The notes below the pieces were generated by a model. It was not told the DNA's origin. It saw only the letters and a list, made by a program, of their open reading frames with translations, and ran no database searches. From an uncultured Patescibacteria group bacterium (GTDB lineage Bacteria; Patescibacteriota; Patescibacteriia; UBA2591; CALHIP01): a stretch of 32,210 nt of DNA. A program made the translations under genes and the position numbers. The stretch spans positions 1 through 32,210 of the forward strand of contig CALHIP010000002.1 in NCBI GenBank assembly GCA_938030745.1. Direction: 5' to 3'. Position 1 is the first letter of the stretch, and every line of letters begins with the position of its first letter. Shown here one piece after another: positions 13,142 to 16,957 of the stretch.

Positions 13142-13816
13142 ATGGCAATTATTATCAGTTTAGGAGGGTCTTTGGTTGTTCCAAAGAAAAATTTTTTAGC
13201 GACAAAATATTTATTACGATTCAAAAAATTAATTTTAAAATTTTCTAAAAAAGAAAAATTTTTTATTGTTGTTGGTGGAGGAAAATTGGCTCGCTTTTAT
13301 CAAGAAGAAGCTAAAAAGCAGAAAGTAGGAAAAGAAGATTTGGATTGGTTAGGAGTTTTTGCTACTTATCTTAATGCTCTTTTTGTTAAAAGTCTTTTTG
13401 GCAAACTGGCTTATTCCAAAATTTTTTTCACCCCTTTTAAAAAAAGAAAGATAAAAGAAAATATTATCTTTTTTGGTGGTTGGAAACCTGGTTGGAGTAC
13501 CGATTATGTTTCAGTTAAGTTAGCTCAAACTTATGGCGTTAAAGAGATAATTAATTTAACTAATGTTGATTATATTTATAATAAGGATCCGCAAAAATTT
13601 AAAGATGCAAAACCATTAAAAAAAATTTCTTGGTCAGAATATTTAAAAATCATTGGTAAAAAATGGGTGCCAGGAGCAAGCTATCCTTTTGATCCAATTG
13701 CAAGTTTATTAGCAAAAAAATTAAAAATTAGATTAATCAGTATCAATGGCAAAAATTTGAAGGCTGTGGATAACTATTTGACAGGAAAAAAATTTGATGG
13801 TACAATAATTGAATAA
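13142..13816 (+). CDS. pyrH: Amino acid kinase family, archaeal-type UMP kinase-like
   Basis: IIISLGGSLVVP, FIVVGGGKLARFYQEEA, NLTNVDYIYNKDPQKFKDAKPLKKISW. Confidence 0.75.
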   Translation: MAIIISLGGSLVVPKKNFLATKYLLRFKKLILKFSKKEKFFIVVGGGKLARFYQEEAKKQKVGKEDLDWLGVFATYLNALFVKSLFGKLAYSKIFFTPFKKRKIKENIIFFGGWKPGWSTDYVSVKLAQTYGVKEIINLTNVDYIYNKDPQKFKDAKPLKKISWSEYLKIIGKKWVPGASYPFDPIASLLAKKLKIRLISINGKNLKAVDNYLTGKKFDGTIIE

Positions 13817-13823
13817 AAATTTT

Positions 13824-13921
13824 ACCGTAGACAATAGGTCTTCGAGTTTACTCGAAGTTAAAATCCTATCGAGGTAAAAATCTTTATTTTTGTCTACGGT
13901 TTACGTAGACGTTTTAAATTT
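13824..13921 (+). ncRNA. Ribosomal protein L10-leader-like regulatory RNA upstream of rplJ
   Basis: 11-bp closing stem 13824-13834/13890-13900 around an inner hairpin (13840-13846/13851-13857); competing hairpin 13892-13898/13904-13910 uses the same strand. Confidence 0.75.
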
Positions 13922-14449
13922 ATGGCTAGGACAAGAAAAGAAAAACAAGAAATTTTAAAAAAGCTTTCTGAAAAAATTTCTCAAGCAAAATCTTTGGTTT
14001 TTATTGGTTATAAAGGGATAAAAATAAATGAGCAGGAAAAATTAAGAAAATTATTAAAGAAAGAAAAGAGTGAACTTTTTATTACTAAAAAAAGTTTATT
14101 AAATTTAGTTTTATCTAAATTCAATTTTGAAAGACTTAAAGATTTGAAATTAGAAGGAGAGGTAGGTTTGGTTTTAGGTTATGGCGATGAGATAACGCCC
14201 TTTAAGATTGCTTTTGATTTTTCAAAAGAAAATGAAAATTTAAAAATTAAAGGTGGAGTTTTTGAAAAGAAAATGATCAATCTTGAGACAATAAAATTTT
14301 TAGCTAGTTTGCCATCAAAAGCGATTCTCCAATCTCAACTTTTAATTAGTCTTCGCCAACCTTTGTTAGGATTAATTAATATTTTAGAAGCTAATTTAAG
14401 AAAATTAATTAATATTCTAAAAATTCTCTCAAAATCACCAACTATATAA
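13922..14449 (+). CDS. rplJ: 50S ribosomal protein L10
   Basis: L10 pattern with directly downstream L7/L12. Confidence 0.93.
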   Translation: MARTRKEKQEILKKLSEKISQAKSLVFIGYKGIKINEQEKLRKLLKKEKSELFITKKSLLNLVLSKFNFERLKDLKLEGEVGLVLGYGDEITPFKIAFDFSKENENLKIKGGVFEKKMINLETIKFLASLPSKAILQSQLLISLRQPLLGLINILEANLRKLINILKILSKSPTI

Positions 14450-14955: not shown

Positions 14956-14980
14956 GCTGAGAAAAGACTCAGCTTTTTAT
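14956..14980 (+). terminator. Rho-independent terminator after rplL
   Basis: gctgag-aaaaga-ctcagc followed by ttttt. Confidence 0.85.
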
Positions 14981-14981
14981 T

Positions 14982-15009
14982 TTGACAAAACTAAATTTTA
15001 TATTATAAT
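14982..15009 (+). promoter_or_regulatory. Consensus promoter of def: TTGACA-N16-TATAAT
   Basis: TTGACA 14982-14987, TATAAT 15004-15009; ATG 15017 is 7 nt downstream of the -10. Confidence 0.85.
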
Positions 15010-15016
15010 AGTTATT

Positions 15017-15499
15017 ATGATTTTAAAAATCATAAAATATCCAAATCCTATTTTAAGAAAAAAAAGTAAAAAAATTGAAATAATTGATAGAAAAATTAAA
15101 AAACTTGCTCAAGATATGCTTGAAACATTGAAATCTGCTCAAGGATTAGGATTGGCAGCTCCTCAAGTTGGTGAAAGTATTTCCCTTTTTGTTCTCAATT
15201 TTGGCGAAAAATCACTTGTTTTTATTAACCCAGAAATTATAAAAAAAAGTAAGAAAAAAGAAGTGTTAGAAGAGGGGTGTTTGAGTTTTCCTGGCTTATT
15301 TTTAAAAATCAAAAGACCGAAAGAAATAGAAATAAAAGCCTTAGATCTTAATGGTCAAGAAATAAAAAGAAAATTCAATGGACTAGATGCCCGTGTTATT
15401 CAACACGAGATTGATCATTTAAATGGAATCTTATTTATTGATAGACTTTCTTGGTTGGAAAAATTAAAATTAAAGAAAAAAATAGCGGCAGTAGTTTAA
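15017..15499 (+). CDS. def: Peptide deformylase
   Basis: GLGLAAPQVG, EEGCLSFPG, QHEIDHLNGILFIDRL. Listed ORF starts at 14954 inside the terminator; 15017 is the supported start. Confidence 0.95.
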   Translation: MILKIIKYPNPILRKKSKKIEIIDRKIKKLAQDMLETLKSAQGLGLAAPQVGESISLFVLNFGEKSLVFINPEIIKKSKKKEVLEEGCLSFPGLFLKIKRPKEIEIKALDLNGQEIKRKFNGLDARVIQHEIDHLNGILFIDRLSWLEKLKLKKKIAAVV

Positions 15500-15556
15500 A
15501 GGTAGAATATCTCCTTCCCAAGGAGAAGGTTGTGGGTTCGAGTCCCATCTGCCGCT
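15485..15556 (+). tRNA. tRNA-Gly(CCC)
   Basis: Acceptor GCGGCAG/CTGCCGC, anticodon stem-loop TCTCC-TTCCCAA-GGAGA, T-loop TTCGAGT; no encoded CCA. Confidence 0.93.
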
Positions 15557-15557
15557 A

Positions 15558-16322
15558 ATGAAAAAATTTATTATTCAGACAATAAAAAAAGCAGGAAGGA
15601 TTTTAATTAATTATTTTCAAAAAGATAAAAAACTTCCAAAACTCAGAAGATATGGAAAAGAAATTGTTACTGTTTACGATAGATTAATTGACAAATTTTT
15701 GATTAAAAAAATTAGTCAGAAATTTCCAAATGATAATTTCTTTACTGAAGAATCTGGTTTAATTAAAAAAAATTCAGATTTTTTATGGCTAATTGACTCA
15801 CTTGATGGGACTTCAAATTTTGCTGTTGGCAATCCTTTCTTTTCAATTTCAATTGCTTTATTGAAAAATAAAAAATTAATTTTAGGAATAGTTTATTCAC
15901 CGATTATTGATGAACTTTATTTTGCTGAAAAAGGTAAAGGTGCATTTTTAAATAATCAAAAAATTAAAGTTAGCCAAGTTAAAGATCTAAAAAAAAGTTA
16001 TCTTTATTTTTGCGAAGGAGGTGAAAAAAATCGAAAAAGGACAGCAAAGATAATTAAAAAGGTCTACCCAAAAGTCATTGAATTAAGGAAACTTGGCTCA
16101 GCTGCTCTTGAATGTTGCTGGGTAGCATCAGGTAAAGGAGAAGGTTATATTACAACTAAAATTGAACCATGGGATGTTGCAGCTGGATCATTGATTGTCG
16201 AAGAAGCAGGTGGTAAAGTAACAGATTTTAAAGGAAATTTTTGGCAACCAATAAAGACAGATTTTGTTGCTTCCAATAACAAAATTCATTCATCTTTGTT
16301 AAAATTAATTAAAAATTTATAA
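15558..16322 (+). CDS. Inositol monophosphatase family protein
   Basis: FFTEESG, WLIDSLDGTSNFAVGNPFFSISIAL, EPWDVAAGSLIVEEAGGKVTDFKG. Confidence 0.93.
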   Translation: MKKFIIQTIKKAGRILINYFQKDKKLPKLRRYGKEIVTVYDRLIDKFLIKKISQKFPNDNFFTEESGLIKKNSDFLWLIDSLDGTSNFAVGNPFFSISIALLKNKKLILGIVYSPIIDELYFAEKGKGAFLNNQKIKVSQVKDLKKSYLYFCEGGEKNRKRTAKIIKKVYPKVIELRKLGSAALECCWVASGKGEGYITTKIEPWDVAAGSLIVEEAGGKVTDFKGNFWQPIKTDFVASNNKIHSSLLKLIKNL

Positions 16323-16328
16323 AAATTT

Positions 16329-16400
16329 GCCGGAGTAACTCAGCGGTAGAGTAGCGGTTTCGTAAACCGCAGGTCGTGAGTTCGAATCTCACCTCCGGCT
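16329..16400 (+). tRNA. tRNA-Thr(CGT)
   Basis: Acceptor GCCGGAG/CTCCGGC, anticodon loop TTCGTAA, T-arm GTGAG-TTCGAAT-CTCAC; no encoded CCA. Confidence 0.93.
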
Positions 16401-16405
16401 TACTT

Positions 16406-16957
16406 ATGACCCGTGATGAGGCATTAAATTTAGTTAGAGAAAGAATTAAAAATCAAAATCTTTTTAAGCATTGTTTAGCAGTTGAAGCAGTAATGTGTAA
16501 ATTAGCTGAATATTTCAAAGAAAACAAAGAAAAATGGGGGTTGGCTGGTTTACTCCATGATATTGATTATGAGGAAACAAAAAATTTTCCAGAAAAACAT
16601 AGTTTAATTGCTGCCGAACTCTTAGAAAAATTAGGGTTAGATAAAGAAATTGTTGAAGCGGTTAAAGCCCATAATGAATTTCATAATCTGCCTCGTCAGA
16701 CGAAATTAGCTAAAGCCCTTTTTTGTACTGATCCAATAACTGGTTTAATTGTTGCTGCTACCTTAGTTCTGCCTTCTAAAAAATTAAGAGATTTAACTCC
16801 AGAAAATATTTTAAATCGTTTCAAAGAAAAATCTTTTGCCCGCGGAGCGAATCGTGATGTTATTTCTACCTGTTCAGAAATTGGTTTATCAGTTGAAGAA
16901 TTCATTAAAATTTCTTTATCAGCAATGCAGGAAATTTCTTCAGAATTAGGATTATAA
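16406..16957 (+). CDS. HD-domain protein (HDIG-like hydrolase)
   Basis: LAGLLHDIDYEET, AHNEFHNL. ORF track start at 16376 lies inside the tRNA; ATG 16406 is the likely start. Confidence 0.85.
   Translation: MTRDEALNLVRERIKNQNLFKHCLAVEAVMCKLAEYFKENKEKWGLAGLLHDIDYEETKNFPEKHSLIAAELLEKLGLDKEIVEAVKAHNEFHNLPRQTKLAKALFCTDPITGLIVAATLVLPSKKLRDLTPENILNRFKEKSFARGANRDVISTCSEIGLSVEEFIKISLSAMQEISSELGL

Follow-up and report, generated by a model that had tools for sequence, protein, structure and literature searches.

How can one stretch of DNA encode both the last codons and the stop codon of an essential gene and the 5' end of a tRNA, when excision of the tRNA would take the stop codon out of the message? 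The question is raised by the peptide deformylase gene def and a tRNA-Gly(CCC) gene in an uncultured Patescibacteria group bacterium (G000), located on the 32,210-nucleotide stretch of DNA analysed here, referred to as the window, which belongs to a 760.6-kb draft genome in 35 contigs. The preliminary description had placed the first 15 bases of the tRNA on the end of def, and these coordinates and codons proved correct with ARAGORN, with Rfam and by reading of the sequence (Table 1). The 3' codons of def are aaa ata followed by gcg gca gta gtt TAA, and the final 15 nt are positions 1-15 of the tRNA. The tRNA spans 15484-15557 according to ARAGORN and 15485-15556 according to Rfam (68.4 bits, E 4.2e-13), corresponding to distances of -16 and -15 nt, respectively, where negative values denote overlap. 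The overlap is thereby confirmed.

Table 1. Features at the def/tRNA-Gly locus, in window coordinates
Feature	Position	Strand	Remarks
Terminator-like hairpin behind rplL	14956..14973	+	Separates the ribosomal-protein unit from def
Consensus sigma-70 promoter, TTGACA-16-TATAAT	14982..15009	+	12/12; 7 nt from the end of the -10 element to the def ATG
def, peptide deformylase	15017..15499	+	160 aa; stop TAA at 15497-15499
tRNA-Gly(CCC)	15485..15556	+	No encoded CCA
Shared stretch	15485..15499	+	def 3' end and stop codon; tRNA-Gly positions 1-15
U8-A9-G10 (TAG) of tRNA-Gly	15492..15494	+	Out of the def frame here; def stop in four relatives
Second built-in TAG, D-loop GG-UAG of tRNA-Gly	15503..15505	+	In the def frame
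Inositol-monophosphatase-family protein (IMPase)	15558..16322	+	ATG at 15558-15560; no Shine-Dalgarno motif
tRNA-Thr(CGU)	16329..16400	+	6 nt behind the IMPase stop
HD-domain protein	16406..16957	+	ATG 5 nt behind tRNA-Thr

The product of def contains the peptide deformylase domain (Pfam PF01327, E 2.4e-54) with the conserved motifs up to HEIDH, and its homologues terminate close to the same place in the alignment. The tRNA folds into a canonical cloverleaf with a CCC anticodon that is conserved across relatives. In all 13 tRNA-Gly(CCC) genes the acceptor stem is paired at 7 of 7 positions, with compensatory changes at positions 4-7, and since these covarying positions also encode the C-terminus of the deformylase in the overlapping genomes, the fold of the tRNA constrains the last def codons. 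A reading in which this tRNA-Gly is a pseudogene undergoing decay, or def a misread frame, leaving the overlap without functional meaning, is highly improbable on these data: a tRNA-Gly with a UCC anticodon is also present in the genome and could read GGG through wobble, but the score of the tRNA-Gly(CCC) match, the covariation of its 7-bp acceptor stem across 13 genomes, the full Pfam match of def and the common end point of its homologues all speak against it. The pseudogene, which the preliminary description had named as a possible objection, is ruled out by the perfect and covarying acceptor stem, and a spurious def frame by the Pfam match together with the alignment of homologues.

The position of the stop codon depends on the bases of the tRNA. 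In G000 the def frame skips U8-A9-G10 and terminates at bases 13-15, because base 13 is a T where related tRNAs with a similar D-arm have a C. The TAG in the D-loop would act as a backup stop for def should the TAA mutate. To place the overlap in context, we inspected 26 genomes of the order, 22 of which had a def match; in 13 of these 22, the gene after def was tRNA-Gly(CCC). The distance between the last base of the def stop codon and the start of the tRNA was -15 nt in G000 and -10 nt in each of the genomes G001, G024, G023 and G013, in which the def stop is the TAG at U8-A9-G10. The two genes abut directly in G010 (0 nt), while def ends 8-264 nt before the tRNA in the remaining seven genomes (G019, 8; G021, 32; G012, 51; G025, 115; G018, 125; G014, 143; G002, 264 nt). 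Overlaps are thus present in 5 of the 13 genomes with this adjacency and are spread over three families; in each of two genera, an overlapping species stands beside a separated one (G013 and G002; G023 and G025). Conservation in relatives therefore holds in the sense that the overlap recurs but not in the strict sense, since it is lost within two genera, indicating that it is recurrent but readily gained or lost. Given the adjacency in 13 of 22 genomes and the recurrence of overlap or abutment both there and at other tRNAs, the arrangement is beyond chance.

Some of the separated junctions carry additional sequence. A truncated tRNA-like fragment is located between def and the intact tRNA-Gly in G018 (L015) and G002 (L026), which gives the impression of a past insertion or duplication at the junction. 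In G025 (L028) an inverted repeat lies between the two genes, with CCCCGTTAGAGGAT in the 3' end of def and ATCCTCTAACGGGG further on, and the def frame runs into this repeat. Judging from the repeat and the fragments, insertions may be one route by which def and the tRNA were separated. Elsewhere, the def match falls into two pieces with a 30-base gap and an open frame of 187-189 aa across them (G016:C57:6422-6940 and G022:C8:1217-1735), which we read as a protein insertion relative to the query.

The distribution also bears on whether the overlap is a regulatory switch, in which the cut by RNase P would yield either deformylase or tRNA-Gly from a transcript, with tmRNA-tagged deformylase in the tRNA branch, and would couple the deformylase level to tRNA processing. 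Such a molecular logic is possible, with tmRNA, SmpB and RNase P RNA all present, and the overlap is found in three families. However, retention by selection across relatives was not what we observed (5 of 13, with differences within two genera): congeners do without the overlap (G002 versus G013, G025 versus G023), as does the majority of genomes that share the gene order. The loss in close relatives leaves a dedicated def/tRNA switch unsupported, and with similar overlaps at the unrelated genes rplT, a methyltransferase gene and a DUF3419 gene, nothing about the arrangement is specific to def. We regard a switch as very unlikely.

These other overlaps were identified by reading the sequence around the tRNAs. 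In G000, four of the 47 tRNAs share bases with a coding sequence that lies on the same strand and has a Pfam match: besides def at positions 1-15 of tRNA-Gly(CCC), rplT stops on the TAG at positions 8-10 of tRNA-Asp, the methyltransferase gene at positions 20-22 of tRNA-Gln and the DUF3419 gene at positions 35-37 of tRNA-Ser. About a dozen further tRNAs begin 0-13 nt after a stop codon. Tight packing of coding sequences against tRNAs, almost without spacer, is thus found at the def locus and at several others, involving a minority of the 47 tRNAs. In the sister species G001, 4 of 46 tRNAs overlap an upstream coding sequence, namely def with tRNA-Gly (-10), the DUF3419 ortholog with tRNA-Ser (-14), and two frames judged by codon usage only, one of 277 aa that ends with TAG in tRNA-Thr (-10) and one before tRNA-Arg (-1). 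The rplT stop coincides with the tRNA-Asp TAG(8-10) in G000, G024, G019 and G014, while the two are separated by 1-8 nt in seven other genomes. In G000 the rplT (L20)/tRNA-Asp pair (C28:17155-17563; L050, L205) is located shortly downstream of smpB and the tmRNA gene (C28:15619-16441). The overlap of DUF3419 with tRNA-Ser(UGA) is conserved with differing stop positions, spanning 37 nt in G000 (C23:19408-19494; L060) and 14 nt in G001 (C16:11717-11803; L246). A control in distant bacteria comprised only 6 tRNAs. A single open frame ended within one of them (L112), and on inspection this frame seems to be non-coding.

Whether def and tRNA-Gly compete for the same RNA depends on how they are transcribed. 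Since the -10 element of the consensus promoter ends 7 nt from the ATG, the def mRNA is predicted to have almost no leader or none at all. Further upstream in the window, a ribosomal protein L10 leader (13807-13926; RF00557, 56 bits) precedes rplJ-rplL, and a promoter-like site lies at 13778-13806. We found no terminator-like site between def and tRNA-Gly, for which reason RNA from the def promoter is expected to run through the tRNA. We then took the best promoter score in the region 7-30 nt upstream of each tRNA and set it against control positions further upstream, placing the tRNAs in classes manually on the basis of the gap tables. Free-standing tRNAs in G000 scored on average 9.5 of 12 against 7.5 for the controls, and 12 of 21 reached 10, whereas tight and overlapping tRNAs scored on average 8.0-8.1 against 7.6-7.7, and 1 of 17 reached 10. 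The difference between the classes was significant in both species (Mann-Whitney test; G000, p = 6e-4; G001, p = 0.03). Overlapping and abutting tRNAs are thus likely to be on a transcript shared with the upstream gene.

The chief rival reading is that tRNA-Gly has its own promoter in the 3' end of def, so that the two genes would be on separate transcripts, the overlap would merely be shared DNA and there would be little conflict. A weak promoter-like match (TAGACT-17-TAAAAT, 9/12) is indeed located at 15442-15470, its -10 element ending 14 nt before the tRNA, and another such site (16276-16305) precedes tRNA-Thr; the best score for tRNA-Gly, 9, is borderline, and no control position equals it. 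Matches of the 9/12 type numbered 10 against about 14 expected in shuffled sequences. As a class the tight and overlapping tRNAs are near background, unlike the free-standing ones, and even with a private promoter the RNA from the def promoter would still traverse tRNA-Gly. We therefore consider a private promoter unlikely. The preliminary description had listed a separate promoter and processing path for the tRNA among the possible objections; no strong promoter was found, as for the other tight tRNAs, with the 9/12 site remaining a borderline candidate.

On a shared transcript, cleavage by RNase P at 15485 is predicted to strip def of its stop codon, as had been proposed, and the genes for RNase P RNA, tmRNA and SmpB are all present in G000. 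The stronger proposal, that one primary transcript cannot give both a mature tRNA-Gly and an intact def message, stands for simultaneous products but not for successive ones, since an RNA copy may be translated first and cut later. At the other end of the tRNA, the geometry underlying a predicted A-AUG end of the IMPase mRNA is as described (discriminator T15556, one A, then ATG). Such an end presumes RNase Z, but none scored above the cut-off in the 35-contig draft (best TIGR02651 match 27 versus 293 bits). By inspection this best match reads as RNase J, and the other two metallo-lactamase matches read as a UPF0173-type hydrolase and ComEC. The tRNAs of G000 have no encoded CCA, yet no RNase Z was found above the family cut-off. 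If the 3' end of tRNA-Gly were trimmed from a downstream cut, this cut would fall within the IMPase frame.

The IMPase gene (PF00459, E 6.5e-64) starts in a genome that makes little use of Shine-Dalgarno motifs. GGAGG or AGGAG was found within -20 to -4 at 0 of 90 gene starts in the G000 sequence examined, four-base Shine-Dalgarno-like words were rarer at starts than at control positions (2 versus 10), and the 3' end of the 16S rRNA is CCUCA rather than CCUCC. The anti-Shine-Dalgarno core was CCUCA or CCUCU in 11 of the 15 readable genomes of the order (L088 in G000, L170, L171, L172, L173, L174, L176, L177, L183, L184 and L185) and CCUCC in four (G003, G004, G007 and G009), all of which are without the def-tRNA-Gly adjacency. 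Loss of this core is already known in other bacteria (PMC6107228). Since the starts examined in G000 are without Shine-Dalgarno motifs, IMPase is at no particular disadvantage in this genome from having its ATG 1 nt after the tRNA. No clear genome-wide leaderless signal, in the form of TATAAT at a fixed distance before the ATG, was seen in G000. In the sister species the sequence 3' of tRNA-Gly is not IMPase (L002), and the tRNA-IMPase half of the arrangement is thus not conserved within the genus.

Taken together, we consider genome compaction, with the tRNA supplying the stop codon of def and the RNA being translated and then cut, to be the best explanation of the overlap, with a probability of roughly two in three. 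Compaction would have removed the spacer and the original def stop codon in front of a co-transcribed tRNA-Gly(CCC). The conserved D-arm bases would often provide one TAG at U8-A9-G10 and a second in the D-loop (GG-UAG), and therefore a frame entering such a tRNA can close within about 10-22 nt, as reasoned from the sequences at these loci. The genes def and tRNA-Gly, and probably also IMPase, tRNA-Thr and the HD-domain gene, would be transcribed from the consensus promoter upstream of def. Translation of each RNA copy would come first, with the tRNA part unfolded or covered by the terminating ribosome; once the ribosomes have cleared, the tRNA would fold, RNase P would cut at 15485 and expression of def from that copy would end, while ribosomes still upstream would be rescued by tmRNA-SmpB. 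We infer the cotranscription, the order of translation and cutting and the rescue by tmRNA, and likewise that the overlap persists because it is tolerated, not because it is selected for.

Transcripts that contain both an mRNA and a tRNA are familiar from bacteria. In the secG-leuU operon of E. coli, the two are separated by nuclease processing of one transcript, an organization that resembles the one proposed here; in such classical operons the stop codon is located ahead of the tRNA and processing leaves the message intact. Another likeness is offered by the model of tRNA punctuation in animal mitochondria (Ojala, Montoya and Attardi 1981; see PMC10941002), in which tRNAs also separate coding sequences and the spacer is short or absent, so that excision would set the mRNA ends and downstream mRNAs would be nearly leaderless. 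The present case differs in being bacterial, in involving a minority of the tRNAs, in a predicted excision with no RNase Z identified, and in having the stop codon within the tRNA, at 13-15 nt. In metazoan mitochondria, tRNA genes that overlap likewise share nucleotides, so that each molecule yields one complete product; there, a tRNA overlaps a tRNA and is repaired by 3' editing (PMC4284800), whereas here a coding sequence overlaps a tRNA and translation can precede cleavage. Same-strand gene overlaps of about 10 nt have arisen by genome reduction in Blattabacterium and Carsonella (PMC2768785), but these concern neighbouring genes in general, while the partner here is a tRNA whose processing destroys part of the coding sequence. 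The open literature searched yielded mitochondrial cases but no account of a stop codon placed within a tRNA in bacteria; most subscription papers lie outside it, and this is weak evidence for novelty.

Annotation practice discourages coding sequences that overlap tRNAs and may conceal further cases of this kind. More broadly, tRNA genes might act in this small-genome lineage as a joint stop codon and RNA-cutting signal for upstream messages, giving transcripts a fixed life, an idea that we consider rather improbable. If it were true, translation would last until the tRNA folds, the message would become non-stop after the RNase P cut and be cleared via trans-translation, and tRNA maturation would be a timer for def, rplT and other genes. 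A stop codon inside a tRNA would make one RNA a message and then a tRNA precursor, a conflict that textbook bacterial operons avoid, and conserved D-arm bases can serve as a ready-made stop codon. The recurrence of such overlaps at the essential genes def and rplT within one order would provide natural tests of how termination, tRNA folding and RNase P compete, and test cases for routine ribosome rescue.
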